Shown here one piece after another: positions 5,012 through 35,637 of a DNA stretch of 64,000 nt (positions are counted from its first letter, which is position 1; each line of letters starts with the position of its first letter). The stretch spans positions 1 to 64,000 of IMG/VR virus record IMGVR_UViG_3300046820_001050; one strand, 5' to 3'. The DNA comes from a virus. Position numbers and translations under genes: made by a program. Under the pieces are notes generated by a model that saw only the letters and a program-made list of their open reading frames with translations, made no database searches and was not told the DNA's origin.

Positions 5012-5020
5012 TGTGGATAA
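5012..5020 (-). other. perfect DnaA box
   Basis: TGTGGATAA on the plus strand, which is TTATCCACA on the minus strand. It lies between hairpin copy 4 and the promoter of the DUF932 gene. Confidence 0.6.
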
Positions 5021-6314: not shown

Positions 6315-6408
6315 TTAGTCTAGGTGTCCGATATGTCCGAATTGACATTTTTAATAATATCTATTAAGATCATCAAATAATATTTCCTGGATTTTCCGAT
6401 TACGATAC

Positions 6409-6437
6409 TTGACATTTATCTCCCAAACCCCTATAAT
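6409..6437 (+). promoter_or_regulatory. class II (leaderless) promoter
   Basis: Consensus TTGACA at 6409-6414, 17 bp, consensus TATAAT at 6432-6437, then 6 nt to ATG 6444. The strongest promoter match in this part of the window. Confidence 0.75.
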
Positions 6438-6443
6438 TAGTAT

Positions 6444-6608
6444 ATGACCCAAACAAAACCTTACACAATAGATGAACTAATGCAAAAAATATATGATGAG
6501 AATTTTTCTCATTTTGATTTCATGGATAACATGAATGGTGGAGAGTGTGATTGTAATCTCCATGTGGCTATGGATTTAATGTATGAGTATGGGGGTGGAC
6601 TATGTTAG
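6444..6608 (+). CDS. acidic 54-aa protein
   Basis: Start fixed by promoter spacing. Acidic with a Met/Phe-rich middle and GGECDCN. Its last 7 bases overlap the next start. Unrecognised. First gene of a run of tiny overlapping genes. Confidence 0.6.
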   Translation: MTQTKPYTIDELMQKIYDENFSHFDFMDNMNGGECDCNLHVAMDLMYEYGGGLC

Positions 6609-9289: not shown

Positions 9290-9420
9290 AAAATATACCA
9301 CATATATCAAACCTTGTCAAACCTCATAGCAATGTATTACGAACCAATCTAAAAATTTCCCAGAAATAGATTACGATGGTTTGAAAATTTTTCCCAGAAG
9401 TTTACCATATCAAACCTTAT

Positions 9421-9450
9421 TTGTCAAACCTTCATATCTAGGTGTATAAT
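9421..9450 (+). promoter_or_regulatory. class II (leaderless) promoter with CAAACCTT on its -35
   Basis: TTGTCA at 9421-9426, 18 bp, TATAAT at 9445-9450, then 6 nt to ATG 9457. A CAAACCTT copy (9425-9432) overlaps the -35, suggesting repression by whatever binds the repeat. Confidence 0.65.
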
Positions 9451-9456
9451 AAAGGT

Positions 9457-9675
9457 ATGTCCCCTAGACACTTTGCTAACTATGCTAAGAATAACCCACA
9501 AGACTATCAGTCTTTCTCAGATAACGTATGGAACTCTTTTGTTACTGTTACTCATACTATAGGTTTGAATAGGTTCTTTACTTTTACCCCCGATTTTTTG
9601 CAGGACAAGAAAGTTGAGCAGGCCACAGGCCGCTTCGCCGCAGGCGAAATCCCAGGGGATCAAGCAAAGCAATAA
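9457..9675 (+). CDS. hypothetical 72-aa protein
   Basis: The start at 9457 is fixed by 6-nt promoter spacing; an in-frame ATG 15 bases upstream overlaps the -10. Aromatic- and Asn-rich; the C-terminal 25 residues (VEQATGRFAAGEIPGDQAKQ) are compositionally different from the rest. It lies inside the repeat region, so it may encode a regulator or be transcribed through an origin. Unrecognised. Confidence 0.55.
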   Translation: MSPRHFANYAKNNPQDYQSFSDNVWNSFVTVTHTIGLNRFFTFTPDFLQDKKVEQATGRFAAGEIPGDQAKQ

Positions 9676-9838
9676 CAATACCCCCTATATAAGGTATTAC
9701 GAACCTTTGATTATTTTTCCCAGAGTTTTGGGATATTTTCCAAACCTTTATAAACTTTTATAAGGTTTTTTAAAAAGATTAAGATCCTTTCGTAAAAAAT
9801 CGCTGAACTTTTTAGGGCAAATCATGCATAAAAGATAC

Positions 9839-9867
9839 TTGACAAACCATGGTTTTGCATGTATAAT
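9839..9867 (+). promoter_or_regulatory. consensus sigma70-like promoter
   Basis: TTGACA at 9839-9844, 17 bp, TATAAT at 9862-9867. CAAACCAT overlaps its -35 and CAAACCTT lies just after the -10. No start codon is correctly placed for a leaderless mRNA, so the product could be a noncoding or primer RNA. Confidence 0.6.
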
Positions 9868-9888
9868 GCCCAAACCTTATATAATGGT

Positions 9889-9917
9889 TTGACACTATGG
9901 GGGATATGTGGTATAAG
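9889..9917 (+). promoter_or_regulatory. second tandem promoter-like site
   Basis: TTGACA at 9889-9894, 17 bp, TATAAG at 9912-9917, flanked by three GGTTTG words. Weaker than the site 50 bp upstream. Confidence 0.4.
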
Positions 9918-10037
9918 AGGTTTGGGGATAAGAGGTTTGATGGTTTGGCATTACGAACGCCGTCTATAAAAGCGCTCCCTACTCCACTATCCTCCACTTC
10001 ACTCCACTTCCACCCTATCTACTTATACTATCAGTAA
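9897..10037 (+). CDS. doubtful 46-aa frame in the control region
   Basis: An ATG at 9897 opens 46 codons downstream of the 9839 promoter. The product has a basic start and a Ser/Thr/Pro/His-rich end that reflects the pyrimidine tract. No ribosome binding site. Low-complexity composition makes this more likely noncoding. Confidence 0.15.
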   Translation: MGDMWYKRFGDKRFDGLALRTPSIKALPTPLSSTSLHFHPIYLYYQ

Positions 10038-10045
10038 CATTTATC

Positions 10046-10099
10046 TGTGGATAACTTGTGGATAACTATGACATTTTTAGCCTATTGTCCTGTGGATAA
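10046..10099 (-). other. three perfect DnaA boxes
   Basis: TGTGGATAA (TTATCCACA on the minus strand) at 10046-10054, 10057-10065 and 10091-10099, all in the same orientation. The third overlaps the expected -35 position of the sulfotransferase-like gene promoter. Confidence 0.75.
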
Positions 10100-10130
10100 C
10101 TATCACAACACCCTATGATAGAATAGACAT

Positions 10131-11554: not shown

Positions 11555-12154
11555 ATGGACTATAAAATAAATGGAATAGGTGTTGGCAGGGATCCAAATA
11601 GCATAGAAAGAAAAGACTCGTACAGTGTCAATTTTGAAAAAATAGGAAACTCTAAAGATAACATCAAAGTGTTTAACAACTTCATATCAGATGATATTTG
11701 TGATGAACTTTTATCAGTCAAAGGGCTTCCACACAAGAATGAATCAGAATTTTGGTCCAATAGAGTATTTGCTAACAGACATATCAATGTGATTGCTGAT
11801 ACATTTAGAGAAAAAATAAGACTTATCATTGAAAAAGAATATAAAGTTGATATTTCACCTATAGCACCTGCTCAATCACAAATTAATCCAGCAATAATCT
11901 CATGGCATCCAGGAATCGATATGGGCTTACATGTTGATGACTTGGGCACTGAAGATTATCATATGGCAGCACTTATATATCTTAATGATAATTTTATTGG
12001 TGGGGAAATTTCTTTTCCAACGCATGGTATAGAAATTAAGCCTAAAAGTGGAGATCTTATTATATTCCCTGGAAATTTGAACTATGCACATAAGATAGAT
12101 CCTATTATTTCTGGTAACAGATATACCATGCCATTTTGGTTTAAGTACGAATAA
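11555..12154 (+). CDS. 2OG-Fe(II) oxygenase, prolyl-4-hydroxylase-like
   Basis: 199 aa, double-stranded beta-helix dioxygenase of the prolyl-4-hydroxylase-like group, expected to hydroxylate a substrate with 2-oxoglutarate, O2 and Fe(II). Iron ligands: HVD in GLHVDDLG and the distal His in NYAHKID; the 2OG-binding Arg is in GNRYT. YLNDNFIGGEISF is the usual mid-domain signature. The N-terminal KIGNSKDNIKVFNNF motif is shared with several paralogues in the window. Leaderless: TATAAT 11542-11547 ends 7 nt upstream. Substrate unknown. Confidence 0.85.
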   Translation: MDYKINGIGVGRDPNSIERKDSYSVNFEKIGNSKDNIKVFNNFISDDICDELLSVKGLPHKNESEFWSNRVFANRHINVIADTFREKIRLIIEKEYKVDISPIAPAQSQINPAIISWHPGIDMGLHVDDLGTEDYHMAALIYLNDNFIGGEISFPTHGIEIKPKSGDLIIFPGNLNYAHKIDPIISGNRYTMPFWFKYE

Positions 12155-12186: not shown

Positions 12187-12834
12187 ATGATAGAAAATAA
12201 CAAAGAGTTTACTGGCGCAGTCGATGGAGTCTATGTAGTCAGAAATGCAGTTGTTGGAAATCGCCCAGACATGATACCAAGAGAAAAAAGTTATTTAGAT
12301 TTTTTGAATAAAGTTGGCGACTCTACGGAAAACATTAAAATAATTCCTAACTTTATAGGTGAAGAAGAAATTAAAGACCTTATGTCTCAGGTAGAAGTAA
12401 CAAAGGTAACAAGTTTTGTTTCTCAGAAAGATGCTAATGGTGAGCCAATAAACTGGATGCATACATATATGGGCATACATGATAGATTTAGCATAATCGA
12501 CAGAGTAACAAAAGAAATCAAAGATGCATACGGTTTTGATAACATAAGAGCAAAAGAACCACATCTTCATGTTGTACGATGGGACGAAGGTTCTGCACTA
12601 AAACTTCATGTAGATGACCTTGGGTACGTTACAGATAATAATATAGCAACACTAATCTATCTTAATGATGACTATGAAGGTGGAGAGATTTCTTTTGAAC
12701 AGCACAATCTTTCGGTTAAGCCCAAGACTGGTACACTACTTATATTTCCTGGAAATTTAAACTATGCACATGAAGTTAAAGAAGTTTTGTCTGGCAAAAG
12801 ATATACAGCACCTATCTGGTTTACGATAGTTTAA
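12187..12834 (+). CDS. 2OG-Fe(II) oxygenase, prolyl-4-hydroxylase-like
   Basis: 215-aa paralogue of the preceding gene with all metal and cosubstrate residues: LHVDDLG (His, Asp), NYAHEV (distal His), GKRYTAPIW (Arg). It keeps KVGDSTENIKIIPNF at the N-terminus. TATACT at 12175-12180 ends 6 nt before the ATG; a TTGACA lies upstream but at only 14 bp. Tandem with 11555-12154, which implies local duplication. Confidence 0.85.
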   Translation: MIENNKEFTGAVDGVYVVRNAVVGNRPDMIPREKSYLDFLNKVGDSTENIKIIPNFIGEEEIKDLMSQVEVTKVTSFVSQKDANGEPINWMHTYMGIHDRFSIIDRVTKEIKDAYGFDNIRAKEPHLHVVRWDEGSALKLHVDDLGYVTDNNIATLIYLNDDYEGGEISFEQHNLSVKPKTGTLLIFPGNLNYAHEVKEVLSGKRYTAPIWFTIV

Positions 12835-12848
12835 GGTATAATTTAATA

Positions 12849-13115
12849 GTGACAACCAACTTAGAGGGAAATATGAACAAAAGAAAACTTTTAGATGGAT
12901 CTGAAGTTAATGATTACGATTATCCAATTGATTTAATACTACACACAAAGGCACCTGGCAAATGGAAGTTGATCGATCTTGAAACTGGACAAGAGTATCT
13001 TGGATCAGAAATATCTCATGATACATTCGCTGAACTTTTAAGAAGCAAAGTTTCCTACTCTAAGATAGGATCTTGGTTTAAAACTAAAGGAAGAGTAAAT
13101 AATAATGCAAAATAA
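12849..13115 (+). CDS. hypothetical 88-aa protein, GTG or internal ATG start
   Basis: A GTG at 12849 stands exactly 6 nt after TATAAT (12837-12842), matching the leaderless pattern; an in-frame ATG at 12873 has GAGGGAAAT upstream and would give 80 aa. Small, mixed-charge protein ending in KTKGRVNNNAK. It overlaps the following fusion gene by 11 bases. Function unknown; position between oxygenases suggests a related role. Confidence 0.6.
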   Translation: MTTNLEGNMNKRKLLDGSEVNDYDYPIDLILHTKAPGKWKLIDLETGQEYLGSEISHDTFAELLRSKVSYSKIGSWFKTKGRVNNNAK

Positions 13116-14547
13116 TAACAGACCAATAACCTTTCACTGGATGTGGAGAAGACACTGGCAAATAACTGACAGCATTGAGCACTTGGACCTTAACGGCATT
13201 ATGCAAATGGCAAAAGAGTTGGATGGGGCAGGAGTAAAGTCTGTTTTGCTTCCATATGGTCCAGGAGGTATTGATTTTTCATTAGTCATAAAGGAAGCAT
13301 TAGAAGAAACAAATAAACTAATAATGACAATTGCATTGCCAGCATATGGAACAAGTCCTGACTATGCTGCTAAGATTCTTGAAACTTTAAATAGATTTGC
13401 TCCTGGAAGAATTGGTGTAAACCTTGTCGCTGGAAGATGGGGTGATGAAGGAAATGGTCCTTCAGAAAAGTTAGTATTAGATCACTACATGCATGACTCA
13501 TCACTTATTGATACCCTTGAAAAAAGAGTAGGAGTATCTTCAGTTTGGATGGATAATGTTATGGACCTAATGAAAACCCATCAGCATAAAACACACATGG
13601 CTGTTGTTGGTTCTTCAGATACTACAATTGAAATAGCAAACAAGCATTGCGAATATATCTATGTAGATGATAATTTAGTTTATAGGGAACAGTTTAAGAA
13701 GATTGATCTTAGTCGTGTAAAGCCAATACTTATTATTGACCCACTTATTATTAATCATCCAGATGAAGAAAAAAATGCTACATACGATAAAAATGCAGCA
13801 CCAAGAAAACAACATCATCACGTAAAGGGTACAATAGCAGATGTTACTAGACAAATAAGAGAACTGTCAAATAAATTTGGCATATATGACTTTATGATAC
13901 ACACTGATCAAGAAGATATTAGCAAGTTACTAAAATTAGTAAAAGATTTTAACAATGTAGAACTGCCTCAGCAAAATCAGCAAAACTTTAAGAATGTTGT
14001 TACCTCTGAACTAACAAAGGAAAACTTTACTAACATTGGAAACCGTCCTGATAACATAAAGGTGTTTAACAACTATCTTAGTAAAGAAGAGTGTGCCAGC
14101 ATAATAGAACTAATTAACAAAACAGATACAAGCAACAACAGGTTATTGCAGTCAGACTCTTCTGGAAACCCAATCCTGTCCTTGTTGTACTACGATTCCC
14201 TTGATCTTTCTGAAAGATATATCCCTCAGATTAAGTCTTTCGTAGAACAAGAATACAACGTAAATCTTAAGCCAAGAAATTCTCGCTTTGCCCAATGGCA
14301 GCACATCGATAGCCATACAATACCAATAGATGACCTAGGACATAAGGACTCAAACCATTTGGCTGGCTGGGTATACTTAAACGATGACTATGAGGGTGGA
14401 GAACTATCCTTTATGCATCAGGATATATCGTTTAAGCCTAAGACTGGTGATTTGGTAATGTTCCCTGGGAATATTCACTACTGGTACAATGTAGGACCAA
14501 CAAATGGTTCAAGGTACATAATGCCTATCTGGTTTGATTTTATTTAA
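13105..14547 (+). CDS. luciferase-like monooxygenase fused to a 2OG-oxygenase-like domain
   Basis: 480 aa. Residues about 1-290 look like a luciferase-like (LLM, alkanesulfonate-monooxygenase-type) TIM barrel: FHWMWRRHWQ at the start, TIALPAYGTSPDY, then PGRIGVNLVAGRWGDEGNG near residues 108-126. These enzymes use reduced FMN or F420. Residues about 300-480 match the neighbouring oxygenases (NIGNRPDNIKVFNNY, YLNDDYEGGELSF, GSRYIMPIW). At aligned positions the iron His is Pro407 (PIDDLG) and the distal His is Tyr461 (HYWYNV), so this second domain may not bind iron normally. Substrate unknown. Confidence 0.8.
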   Translation: MQNNNRPITFHWMWRRHWQITDSIEHLDLNGIMQMAKELDGAGVKSVLLPYGPGGIDFSLVIKEALEETNKLIMTIALPAYGTSPDYAAKILETLNRFAPGRIGVNLVAGRWGDEGNGPSEKLVLDHYMHDSSLIDTLEKRVGVSSVWMDNVMDLMKTHQHKTHMAVVGSSDTTIEIANKHCEYIYVDDNLVYREQFKKIDLSRVKPILIIDPLIINHPDEEKNATYDKNAAPRKQHHHVKGTIADVTRQIRELSNKFGIYDFMIHTDQEDISKLLKLVKDFNNVELPQQNQQNFKNVVTSELTKENFTNIGNRPDNIKVFNNYLSKEECASIIELINKTDTSNNRLLQSDSSGNPILSLLYYDSLDLSERYIPQIKSFVEQEYNVNLKPRNSRFAQWQHIDSHTIPIDDLGHKDSNHLAGWVYLNDDYEGGELSFMHQDISFKPKTGDLVMFPGNIHYWYNVGPTNGSRYIMPIWFDFI

Positions 14548-23962: not shown

Positions 23963-24565
23963 TCAAGTATACCATTGTTTCTTTTTGTTAAAAGTGGATC
24001 CAGTAAACTGAAACCATAGAGATGAACTATATCTTTCTCCCTCTAAAATTCTAAATACTTCATGTGTATAGTTTTCATTTCCAGGAAAAATAATCAGACT
24101 GTTAGGCTTTGGCTTAATTTGAATATTGTGATCTATTAAACTTATTTCTCCACCTTCGTACTCATCATTGATGTAATAAATTGATGCAATATGCAGCGAT
24201 TCATTTGAGTTAACGTCTGCGTGTGGATGCAAAACAAAATCTTTTTCAAATTTAATTAAGTTAAATCTGTCCTTTGAAAAAATGTCAATTGGCACGTTAT
24301 AGACATCTTTGGCTTTTTCGTAAGCAATCGTAAATACCTCTTCTAATGAATCAATAACTTTGTCAGACATCTGGTCTAGCCCAATAGTCTTAGCATCCCA
24401 TGGCTGCAGCACCCAGAACTTACGACGAGTTACAAAATCAAGTATCTCATTGTGCTTATCTTTGTCCAAAACATTTTCTATATATATTACGTTTTCTGCG
24501 GAGTTTCCTATTTTAGCAACATTTGCTAAATAGATTTCATCTTTTTCAGAATAATCTTCACTCAT
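23963..24565 (-). CDS. 2OG-Fe(II) oxygenase, prolyl-4-hydroxylase-like (tandem copy 2)
   Basis: 200 aa with HPHADV, NYTHEV and GERYSSSLWF. The N-terminal EIYLANVAKIGNSAENV is nearly identical to the upstream copy (DIYLANVAKLGSSAKNI), showing recent duplication. It overlaps the upstream gene by 8 bases. Confidence 0.88.
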   Translation of the reverse strand: MSEDYSEKDEIYLANVAKIGNSAENVIYIENVLDKDKHNEILDFVTRRKFWVLQPWDAKTIGLDQMSDKVIDSLEEVFTIAYEKAKDVYNVPIDIFSKDRFNLIKFEKDFVLHPHADVNSNESLHIASIYYINDEYEGGEISLIDHNIQIKPKPNSLIIFPGNENYTHEVFRILEGERYSSSLWFQFTGSTFNKKKQWYT

Positions 24566-25181
24566 AGTTCATCCTTTGACGAGTTGTTGTTGGTCCTAAA
24601 AATGTAGATCCAGTAAAAACAAACCTTGCGCCAAAAGTATATCTAAATCCTTCTAAAACTTCAAGTACTCCGTGAACGTAGTTTTCATTACCAGGAAACA
24701 TAACTAAACTATTTGACTTGGGTTTAATTTTTAAATCATAATCTGGAAAAAATATTTCTCCTCCTTCATAATTATCGTTAATATAATACATACACACAAT
24801 ATGTTGGTGTTTTTGAGCATCTGTGTCTATATGCGGCTTCATATTGCTGCCCTTGCGCCACTTAGTCAAAAAATATTGACCCATCAAATCACTATCCACT
24901 TCTATGTCATAATAACTAATACAGTCGAGTCTAGCAGTTTTAAATATTTTTTTTAAAATTTCAACAGAATCCTCTGGCATTGCTTCAACAGGAATTCTTT
25001 CGGTAGTCCATGGCTCTTGAATCCAAGGAATATGATCTGAATTATTTACAAAATTAGATAATGTTTGATATTCTTTATCTGGTAAAAAATTATCTATAAC
25101 ATATATGTTTTTTGCAGAACTTCCTAATTTAGCGACATTTGCTAAATAGATATCATCTTTTTCAGAGTCGTGTTCCATCAT
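24558..25181 (-). CDS. 2OG-Fe(II) oxygenase, prolyl-4-hydroxylase-like (tandem copy 1)
   Basis: 207 aa with KPHIDT, NYVHGV and the Arg in GFRYTFGARF. Ends GSTFLGPTTTRQRMNYE, overlapping the second copy. The ATG pair at 25181 overlaps the upstream membrane protein gene by 4 bases. Substrate unknown; the three copies may act on different residues or partners. Confidence 0.88.
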   Translation of the reverse strand: MMEHDSEKDDIYLANVAKLGSSAKNIYVIDNFLPDKEYQTLSNFVNNSDHIPWIQEPWTTERIPVEAMPEDSVEILKKIFKTARLDCISYYDIEVDSDLMGQYFLTKWRKGSNMKPHIDTDAQKHQHIVCMYYINDNYEGGEIFFPDYDLKIKPKSNSLVMFPGNENYVHGVLEVLEGFRYTFGARFVFTGSTFLGPTTTRQRMNYE

Positions 25182-25606
25182 GTATCCATTTTACCATAAT
25201 CTTTTGGCAAAACTTTCTTTAATTCTTTGTAGGCCATAGATATTTTTTTCATTGAGTGGTAGTGTGGATAAGCAGAGCCAACCTCTCCATACTCGTCAAA
25301 GTATGATATCTCAGGCTCAATATCAGTAATAAAACTATTTAATGATTCTTGGACACCCTCAATGTATTGATAGGCCCAGTCTCTAGAATCTGAAACAAAT
25401 TTTAAAAAAGCATCTGAGTCTGTTTCTTTTTTTAATAAATTACGTGCCGATGCTTCAAAGAGTTTTTCGGCCAAAATTGTTTTGTCTATGTGTGCTTGAA
25501 TTAACTCTTTAGATATAAAAGAAAGTTTAAAACTAAACCTAATGTTATTTATTATTAAAGCAAAAAATAGCAATATAAAAACTATAAATGAAATAAACTC
25601 AATCAT
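25178..25606 (-). CDS. membrane-anchored 142-aa protein
   Basis: N-terminal hydrophobic anchor (MIEFISFIVFILLFFALII) followed by a helical cytoplasmic or periplasmic part. The stretch DSDAFLKFVSDSRDWAYQYIE recurs in many actinophage proteins of unknown function. Coupled to both neighbours by 4-base overlaps. Confidence 0.7.
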   Translation of the reverse strand: MIEFISFIVFILLFFALIINNIRFSFKLSFISKELIQAHIDKTILAEKLFEASARNLLKKETDSDAFLKFVSDSRDWAYQYIEGVQESLNSFITDIEPEISYFDEYGEVGSAYPHYHSMKKISMAYKELKKVLPKDYGKMDT

Positions 25607-33535: not shown

Positions 33536-34969
33536 CTACCCTATAATTTTTGTATTATAGGTATCCTCCCAAGCAACAATATCTATCTCATCATTTAAAA
33601 GTGGTTGTCCTTTAATGTTTAGGCTTGTATTTAATAAAACTGGAACACCAGTTTCAAGATAAAATTTATTTAAAACCCTGTATAGTCCACGATGCTGTTC
33701 TCTATTTACAGTTTGCACTCTTGATGTTCCGTCAGCATGAACCACAGAAGGTATCTTTTCTGGCTGTAGGCATTTAACTGTATACTGCATGTAGGGGCTT
33801 GTAAAGTCCATATCAAACCACTTAGATGCACACTCCTCCATAACTACTGGAGCAAACGGTCTAAACAACTCTCTTTGTTTAATTAAATTAACTTTGTCTT
33901 TAATATTGGGATCTCTTGGATCAGCAAGAATACTTCTATTTCCCAATGCTCTTGGACCGTACTCTGCTCTACCTGCTGCTACTGCTACTATTCCATCCTT
34001 TAATATACCCTCCACAATTTGCTGAACTGGATACTCTCCACCAAGGTCATAACCAAGATATGGGGTCTTCCAGTTAAGGTGCTTTCCGTATAGTGCTGCA
34101 GCAGCCCCTAAAGAACTGCCAGCATCTCCAGGGTTTGGCATAATCCAAATCATATCAAAGATGTTCCATAGCGTCGTGTTTGCTGAAGAATTAAGAGCAC
34201 ACCCACCCATAAACACTAAGTTATTTTTGCCAGTTAAATCTTTAGCCATTTTCATAAACTCTGCAAGCCTTAGTTCATAAACATATTGTACTGCTGCCGC
34301 TATGTCAAACTTATCCTGCTCTGTGATTGGTTCATTCCAGTCAATGATGCCTTTATGAAAATTGTATTTTTGCATATCATGTCTAAGAAAGTAGTTAGAT
34401 ACTTTGGCTGAATACCTTTCTGGATTTCCATAGGCTGCCATTCCCATCATAATGTACTCTTCTTGGTTAGGCATTAAGCCTATTAATTGAGTAAATGCTG
34501 AGTAAAATAGCCCAAAAGATACTGGATAGTTTTTTTTGTACTTTAACCTTATCTTTTCACCTTCACCAACCCAAATTGTAGATGTATTAAATTCACCAAT
34601 TGCATCTAATACCACGATACAAGCATCATTAAATGCGCTTGTGTAGTATCCTGCTGCAGCATGAGAATAGTGATGACCAAAGTTTTTTCTTGGAAGATCA
34701 TCTAATTCTGTACCTTCAAACCATGGAGTACCTCCACCAAAACCACCCCTAGTCTTTACTCTAAGTTTTTTAAGCAAAGGCTTTTCATAGTATGCAATTT
34801 GGTCTGGATATCCGTACTGAAGAGCATCTTTAATAAGTTCTCTGTTTGTAAACCAGTCATTTTTTTGCTTACTATATCTTTCTGCATGCCCTGCAAAAAG
34901 TATCTCACCATTTTTTATTAGGGATACTGAAGCATCATGGGTGGTTTCATTTATACCAAGAATTATCAT
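33536..34969 (-). CDS. carbamoyltransferase (NodU/CmcH-type)
   Basis: 477 aa. The Kae1-like N-terminal domain begins MIILGINETTHDASVSLI and has NFGHHYSHAAAGYY (metal-binding His) and VVLDAIGEFNTS; the C-terminal YrdC-like part has EYGPRALGNRSILADPR, FRPFAPVV and VLLNTSLNIKGQPL. Such enzymes transfer carbamoyl from carbamoyl phosphate to a hydroxyl on a sugar or antibiotic. It is somewhat shorter than many family members (about 530-600 aa). Coupled by 4 bases to the upstream oxygenase gene. Confidence 0.88.
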   Translation of the reverse strand: MIILGINETTHDASVSLIKNGEILFAGHAERYSKQKNDWFTNRELIKDALQYGYPDQIAYYEKPLLKKLRVKTRGGFGGGTPWFEGTELDDLPRKNFGHHYSHAAAGYYTSAFNDACIVVLDAIGEFNTSTIWVGEGEKIRLKYKKNYPVSFGLFYSAFTQLIGLMPNQEEYIMMGMAAYGNPERYSAKVSNYFLRHDMQKYNFHKGIIDWNEPITEQDKFDIAAAVQYVYELRLAEFMKMAKDLTGKNNLVFMGGCALNSSANTTLWNIFDMIWIMPNPGDAGSSLGAAAALYGKHLNWKTPYLGYDLGGEYPVQQIVEGILKDGIVAVAAGRAEYGPRALGNRSILADPRDPNIKDKVNLIKQRELFRPFAPVVMEECASKWFDMDFTSPYMQYTVKCLQPEKIPSVVHADGTSRVQTVNREQHRGLYRVLNKFYLETGVPVLLNTSLNIKGQPLLNDEIDIVAWEDTYNTKIIG

Positions 34970-35637
34970 TCTGCACCATACGACTCTCTTTTTTCATCAA
35001 ATTTTATATTATGATACCAGTTTGGTAGAGCATATCTTGGTCCTTTTGTAACTGGGTGAACCTCATGAACATATAGGAAGTTGGATGGAAAAAATAAAAT
35101 GCTGCCAGCCTTTGGTTTTATCTTAATTCCAGAGTGCTTAAACTCTATCTCTCCACCCTCATAGTCATCATTTAAATAAAGCAAAACGGAAAGCACACGA
35201 CTGCTAACCCCTTGATCTTGATGTGCTGGCAGGTATCCACTTTCCTGATACTTTAATATATGCATTTTTGATTCTCTAGATTTAATATTTTTTTCTGCAA
35301 ATGGATATAGTTCAGTAGAATAGTGGCTAAGTGTTTTTTCTAGTGCTCCAAAAAGTTGATCGGATATACTTTTTTGCTCTTCATAATAAGGATCTTTTAA
35401 GTCAATATTCTCAACTTGTGGTATAAACTTTTGCAAACAAAACATTAGTTCATTTTTACCCTTGCCAAAAGTTCTAGGGATCCAAGGCTTAACACATGTA
35501 TCTTTGTAATTTTCTGATACACACTTACTATCTAATTCTTCTATTTGCTTAATTAAAAAATCTGGATTTTCTATTACATTTGTATAGTATACCAACCCTA
35601 GGTCAAGCACCTCACAGTTAAAATCTGGCATGTCCAT
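34966..35637 (-). CDS. 2OG-Fe(II) oxygenase, prolyl-4-hydroxylase-like
   Basis: 223 aa with LPAHQDQG (His and Asp ligands), LYVHEVH (distal His), KGPRYALPNW (Arg) and YLNDDYEGGEIEF. It is longer at the N-terminus than the rightward copies and lacks their IGNSxxNI motif. It directly precedes and overlaps the carbamoyltransferase gene; hydroxylation followed by carbamoylation is a plausible order. ATG after AGAAGGGA. Confidence 0.88.
   Translation of the reverse strand: MDMPDFNCEVLDLGLVYYTNVIENPDFLIKQIEELDSKCVSENYKDTCVKPWIPRTFGKGKNELMFCLQKFIPQVENIDLKDPYYEEQKSISDQLFGALEKTLSHYSTELYPFAEKNIKSRESKMHILKYQESGYLPAHQDQGVSSRVLSVLLYLNDDYEGGEIEFKHSGIKIKPKAGSILFFPSNFLYVHEVHPVTKGPRYALPNWYHNIKFDEKRESYGAE

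Follow-up and report, generated by a model that had tools for sequence, protein, structure and literature searches.

What does the segment at positions 9290–10130 of this phage DNA do: does it start replication, or does it switch transcription? How DNA replication starts in large virulent actinophages is poorly known, and the available text of PMC7157519 describes the mycobacteriophage replication systems as not well characterised. The initial annotation had offered both readings, a replication origin and a genetic switch with dispersed operators. The origin was found to be well supported in silico, whereas the switch was not supported: the CAAACC words form a single cluster, and no match to PF00589 (tyrosine integrase), PF00239 (serine recombinase), or PF01381 (HTH_3) was detected in the record, which is possibly incomplete.

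Phage Record and Sets of Relatives

The window, meaning the whole stretch of 64,000 nucleotides that was analysed, corresponds to bases 1–64000 of a 98,649-bp IMG/VR virus record. The phage encodes terminase, portal, capsid protein, and maturation protease, and its replication genes comprise a DNA polymerase III-like polymerase, a DnaB-like helicase, a primase, and a UvsX-like recombinase. The DNA polymerase was 51–55% identical to those of Streptomyces phages, which belong to Stanwilliamsviridae in the records examined. This identity, together with the gene set, indicates a tailed phage; its host is probably an actinobacterium, as judged from the polymerase alone. The domain search found no DnaA domain in the record, which makes host DnaA the likely ligand of the predicted DnaA boxes. 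The Rfam search returned tRNAs and no other family. Five proteins (11555–12154, 12187–12834, 13105–14547, 24558–25181, and 34966–35637) share the same PHROGs, labelled 2OG-Fe(II) oxygenase / DNA endonuclease, and may be a multiplied family.

Relatives were collected in two ways. The small protein encoded in the region, used as a query, gave 25 loci and a ten-member alignment gave 78, in all 81 IMG/VR loci; removal of 20 duplicates and 7 loci that were too short left 54 distinct protein-selected loci. The tract-selected set (109 distinct loci among the matches listed) depends on the tract pattern itself, and the protein-selected count is therefore the fairer one. Many of the contigs carrying the module presumably come from freshwater. 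The features of the module are collected in Table 1.

Table 1. Positions of the module features in the window.
Feature	Position	Strand	Remarks
Minus-strand promoter match, 11/12	9320–9292	−	
Forward CAAACC words 5′ of the small gene	9308–9430	+	9308, 9318, 9411, 9425; 9378 reversed
Two tandem 34-bp direct repeats, ATTACGA-N15/16-CCCAGA	9336–9398	+	Units 9336–9364 and 9370–9398
Promoter of the small gene, TTGTCA-18-TATAAT, 11/12 consensus	9421–9450	+	CAAACC overlaps the −35 box
Small gene, 72 aa, probably leaderless, no known family	9457–9675	+	
Third ATTACGA...CCCAGA unit	9696–9733	+	Runs into terminator-like hairpin 9718–9733
Promoter P1, TTGACA-17-TATAAT, 12/12 consensus	9839–9867	+	−35 box inside TTGACAAACC
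Reversed CAAACC cluster	9886–9947	+	GGTTTG at 9886, 9919, 9934, 9942, with promoter-like P2
Promoter-like P2, weaker than P1	TTGACA 9889–9894, TATAAG 9912–9917	+	
Conserved ATTACGAAC directly 5′ of the tract	9950–9958	+	
Pyrimidine tract, three CTCCAC exactly 10 bp apart	9982–10007	+	9982, 9992, 10002
AT-rich interval, candidate DNA unwinding element	10008–10045		Contains conserved ATCAGTAA
Three same-strand DnaA boxes, TGTGGATAA (predicted)	10046–10099	+	10046, 10057, 10091

Repeat Words and Promoters

CAAACC was found 13 times in 9290–10130 (7 on the plus and 6 on the minus strand), compared with 74 copies in the remaining ~97.7 kb of the record, in agreement with the more than 12 such words in both orientations counted initially. 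The enrichment was the best of 578 hexamers (Poisson p = 4.8e-13) and is therefore significant after correction. The whole window held 65 copies against 31 expected from shuffles. Among the 52 window copies outside the region, 48 lay inside ORFs and 4 were intergenic; the ORF labelling accepts small spurious ORFs, so that 7 of the 13 copies inside the region were also labelled coding. In the relatives, the segments upstream held 467 forward and 141 reversed CAAACC words (109 distinct tract-selected loci among the matches listed), and the segment 3′ of promoter P1 held 369 GGTTTG and 54 CAAACC words (tract-selected, among the matches listed).

Two or three strong promoters had been proposed for the region, and we observed one with a 12/12 and one with an 11/12 consensus, while the minus strand gave a further 11/12 match. 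CAAACC overlapped the −35 boxes of three promoters, which bears out the proposed overlap of this word with promoter hexamers. Short asymmetric words of this kind over −35 hexamers would suit a lysogeny switch of the cluster A mycobacteriophage type, in which stoperators are dispersed. However, the words were clustered once, nearly all other window copies lay inside ORFs, and the three domains of integrase, serine recombinase, and HTH_3 found no match in the possibly incomplete record. The CAAACC distribution thus largely refutes dispersed stoperators, and we regard a switch of this type as very improbable. The repressor search suggested in the initial annotation gave no HTH_3 domain in the record.

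Two further words had been reported with three copies each, and both counts were recovered. ATTACGAAC had three of the record's five copies within the region (9336, 9696, and 9950), and TTTCCCAGA had all three (9356, 9390, and 9716), the third inside the terminator-like hairpin; a hairpin with a T-run like this one was also visible in relatives. TTGACAAACC and TGTCAAACC had no further copies in the window. The ATTACGA units kept a single orientation in the 54 protein-selected loci (249 forward, 0 reversed), and 34–38 was their commonest short spacing in relatives (tract-selected, among the matches listed). Direct repeats at helical spacing, by which an iteron replicon is recognised, are therefore present as ATTACGA units of 34–38 bp in one orientation. 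ATTACGA also stood at most 60 nt upstream of the tract at 100 of 108 places (tract-selected, among the matches listed).

Promoter P1 was present in 107 of the 109 distinct tract-selected loci among the matches listed, with a spacer of 17 in 107/107 where 16–18 was allowed. Both the near-perfect P1 and the weaker P2 point through the core. Elsewhere in the window, at 6399–6446, a TTGACA/TATAAT promoter lies just 5′ of an ATG at 6444, with ATTACGA upstream and CAAACC in the spacer; the gene starting there likely has another leaderless start.

The same words and promoters could instead form an early transcription control region, in which a repressor or activator on CAAACC and ATTACGA governs the small-gene promoter and P1/P2, the DnaA boxes work as a roadblock or as an operator that senses DnaA, and the replication start lies at another site. 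The CAAACC words over three −35 boxes agree with this, as does the one fixed orientation of the ATTACGA units, which are followed by CCC after ~15 nt and in this resemble a site for a transcription factor or activator. The module also lies inside a small-gene block that is read in the direction opposite to that of most genes. The evidence that weighs against such a region is given with the relatives below.

Between P1 and the tract there is a noncoding leader of ~150 nt, whose length varies among relatives. A conserved promoter followed by such a leader would be consistent with an RNA-based origin, where a noncoding RNA from P1 primes replication as proposed for RepA-less extrachromosomal mycobacterial prophages; the available text of PMC7157519 reports such systems in actinobacteriophages. 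However, no consensus fold was obtained for 78 aligned P1 leaders (RNAalifold energy 0.0, z 0.19 versus column shuffles), which argues against a structured, ColE1-like RNA primer. With leader lengths varying and DNA words conserved instead of RNA pairs, we consider priming by a P1 transcript improbable.

Tract, AT-Rich Interval, and DnaA Boxes

The asymmetric pyrimidine tract and the three perfect DnaA boxes described initially were both confirmed, the tract as three CTCCAC words. The AT-rich interval is held at a near-fixed distance between this helically phased tract and the same-strand DnaA boxes. TTATCCACA occurred seven times in the window compared with 0.84 expected, and three of the seven copies were in the region, all as TGTGGATAA on the plus strand. 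The four further perfect boxes of the window were at 845–874, 5012–5020, and 25263–25271, two of them forming an intergenic pair 21 bp apart.

The geometry of the core was nearly constant in relatives. The first DnaA box lay exactly 64 bp from the tract start in 102 of 104 tract-selected loci, and 5 of 109 were without a box (both among the matches listed). Downstream of the tract, 286 boxes were on the same strand and none on the opposite strand among the matches listed, with 11/12 and 33/34 as the commonest box spacings (tract-selected, among the matches listed). ATCAGTAA and the first two DnaA boxes were almost invariant in 105 aligned cores among the matches listed. Of 11 long relatives, whose records may be fragments, 9 carried the strict tract exactly once and 2 lacked it.

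Duplex stability was lowest inside this arrangement. The 620-bp mean profile over 106 loci among the matches listed had its minimum at tract +49, that is, between the tract and the first DnaA box (+64). The window's own 27-bp stretch was in the least stable 2.6%, and AT content across 69 distinct intervals was 77%. When the 69 intervals were examined for DnaA trios, top-strand in-frame TAA/TAG numbered 3.41 compared with 1.67 in shuffles, but runs of at least 3 were seen in only 3%, which is weak as a trio pattern.

DnaA boxes alone prove little, because 119 of 131 double-box places in an independent scan were without the tract (among the matches listed). Tandem TGTGGATAAC words were also frequent in unrelated viral contigs, often with several pairs per intergenic stretch.

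The Small Gene

The one small gene noted in the region was confirmed. Its ATG follows the −10 box by 6 nt and it therefore looks leaderless; in 51 of the 54 protein-selected loci, a −10-like box preceded the start codon by 4–9 nt. The 72-aa protein had no Pfam or PHROG match, and no PDB sequence matched it with E below 0.5. Models of two small-protein subfamilies showed low-confidence helices (pLDDT 64.1 and 57.5), the first being the two-helix model of the 72-aa protein. A linked Rep initiator with winged helices, as expected of an iteron replicon, was thus not recognised in this gene.

In the tract-selected loci, small proteins were called automatically by requiring a −10-like box before the start, and a few picks are doubtful (e.g., L068 and L070). 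Most of the 104 distinct proteins called in this way among the matches listed had an N-terminus like MSPRHFA, while the central and C-terminal parts differed between members as swapped blocks. A QLTLF/W-like C-terminal peptide was present in 15 of the 104 distinct proteins among the matches listed, and one of them (L114) combined this tail with an N-terminal part of the window's type. We take the peptide to resemble the sliding-clamp-binding motif. From the CAAACC word at its own −35 box we infer that the small gene may be autoregulated.

Conservation of the Module

Lack of a conserved repeat in relatives had been named as grounds for refuting the initial reading. It was clearly not refuted in this way, since repeats, promoter, and DnaA boxes were all found conserved in the 54 distinct protein-selected loci. 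Promoter P1 was present in 54/54, at least three ATTACGA in 54/54, at least eight CAAACC in 47/54, the strict CTCCAC tract in 46/54, and at least one same-strand DnaA box in 49/54. As background, 1009 stretches of 1250 bp taken elsewhere in these loci had a mean of 1.42 CAAACC (maximum 6) and 0.044 DnaA boxes. A perfect DnaA box was absent from the examined window of five of the 54 loci (L184, L186, L200, L201, and L205). L106, which stems from the same contig as L205, has its tract followed by two boxes, so the L205 miss may be a window effect.

The same two small genes lay upstream, in synteny, in all 88 distinct loci, and downstream genes varied, the longest ORF starting at most 450 nt after the last box being on the plus strand in 42 and on the minus strand in 41. 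The even strand distribution downstream indicates that the module is not tied to any one downstream gene; its behaviour is that of a cis element and not of a gene's promoter. Three results weigh against the early transcription control region described above: the downstream genes are variable and on either strand (42:41), conservation is highest in the tract, AT interval, and boxes and not in a promoter–gene pair, and no HTH_3 regulator was found in the record. We consider it unlikely, although it remains the strongest competitor of an origin.

Outside IMG/VR, no relative of the module was found in INPHARED by megablast of window 1–25000, blastn of the region and of a relative's core, or tblastn of the family consensus; the blastn matches of the region and of the relative's core were short and mainly over DnaA boxes. 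The strict tract pattern hit three stretches in genome_contigs, none of which had a DnaA box or more than one CAAACC per strand, and we treat them as chance matches. Mimicry of a host oriC was set aside on this account, and a looser likeness to host origins is compatible with the data. The literature searched, by titles and abstract openings, held no description of the module. The module is real and widespread, and it is so far undescribed in the literature and phage collections searched.

Proposed Replication-Origin Reading

We favour the reading that the module is where phage replication originates, together with the circuit that controls it, and consider this probable on the sequence patterns. 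Several lines of evidence lead to it. A melting-prone element that abuts same-orientation DnaA boxes and has direct repeats next to it is arranged as known from DnaA-dependent plasmid origins. The module is kept in the 54 protein-selected loci; the tract-selected loci add a nearly fixed geometry and a stability minimum, and most long relatives (9 of 11) have it once. The phage encodes its own polymerase, helicase, primase, and recombinase, and the module is not linked to one downstream gene. In all six of the nearest named phages examined, a noncoding region carries 2–4 DnaA boxes.

In the proposed mechanism, host DnaA would bind the boxes and melt the AT interval, and transcription from P1/P2 would, as in lambda, stimulate the opening. 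The promoters, and through them the rate of initiation, may be tuned by a protein that binds CAAACC, perhaps the product of the small gene. The phage's own DnaB, DnaG, and DNA polymerase would then take over.

The GC-skew check suggested initially was equivocal: a GC3 shift across the module was seen, whereas the usual sign and a skew minimum were not. No cumulative GC-skew minimum was present at the module, such a minimum being a correlate of bacterial chromosome origins and not a defining feature. The GC3 skew of same-strand genes in three long relatives was positive before the module and lower or negative after it, a shift of sign opposite to the usual for a bidirectional origin and confounded by gene content and direction. 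GC skew in the window's own record was likewise uninformative. GC skew is thus not supportive of a conventional bidirectional origin. In these three related phages (L325–L342), the module was inside a block of 20–30 kb whose small genes lie on the other strand than most of the genome's genes.

A bolder reading, which we put forward as doubtful, is a new class of phage origin, widespread in an uncultured actinophage-like group, with a host-DnaA core that transcription from CAAACC-controlled promoters would open and a fast-diversifying leaderless regulator that would target the replication machinery. This last part comes from the sliding-clamp-binding-like peptide QLTLF/W in 15 of 104 proteins among the matches listed. 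A compact module of fixed geometry in more than 100 contigs makes a precise, cloneable hypothesis, and its signature can be used to look for origins in phages that have not been cultured. Its diversifying small gene would represent a novel type of regulator linked to an origin.

Comparison with Known Systems

DnaA-dependent plasmid origins combine direct repeats, DnaA boxes of fixed orientation, and an AT-rich unwinding element (available text of PMC4980987). The module is like the iteron plasmid origins (P1 oriR, RK2 oriV, F, and pSC101) in having repeats, boxes, and an AT-rich element beside a regulated gene. It differs from them in that its repeats are of two unrelated kinds (ATTACGA 34–36-mers and CAAACC hexamers), its linked gene is only ~70–90 aa with no winged-helix match, and strong promoters run through the core. 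Like bacterial oriC, its AT-rich element abuts same-strand TGTGGATAA boxes, and the polarity of unwinding element and boxes is one we take to match E. coli oriC. Unlike oriC, it has no DnaA gene beside it and is flanked by the CTCCAC tract.

At lambda, transcription from pR through ori stimulates initiation (available text of PMC3985674). A rightward promoter likewise fires through the module core. In contrast to lambda, no O-like initiator gene surrounds the module repeats, and the promoter is not dedicated to a single gene downstream. The cluster A mycobacteriophage RNA-based prophage origins share with the module an actinobacteriophage setting and a noncoding transcribed region implicated in replication; according to the available text of PMC7157519, their regions adjoin parABS and can be deleted with lytic growth remaining normal. 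The module differs from these in having no conserved RNA fold. For RepA phages, the same available text reports no repeated motifs upstream of repA, and DnaA is not mentioned in it.

A parallel among cultured phages is found in Streptomyces phages of Stanwilliamsviridae. BillNye, Circinus, Muntaha, Moab, TunaTartare, and Blueeyedbeauty each have a region of ~1 kb with no or hardly any annotated genes, with 4 DnaA boxes in BillNye and 2–4 in each of the five others (L343–L347). The BillNye region (119.2–120.5 kb; L210 24250–25520) aligned to 35 Streptomyces phage records. The CAAACC/ATTACGA/CTCCAC module and the small gene were not detected in these phages by blastn of a relative's core or tblastn of the family consensus; their repeat words differ, boxes are in mixed orientation in some, and the region is not annotated as an origin. 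Like the module, this noncoding region has DnaA boxes together with repeat words of its own, and it offers a bench model for testing the origin hypothesis.
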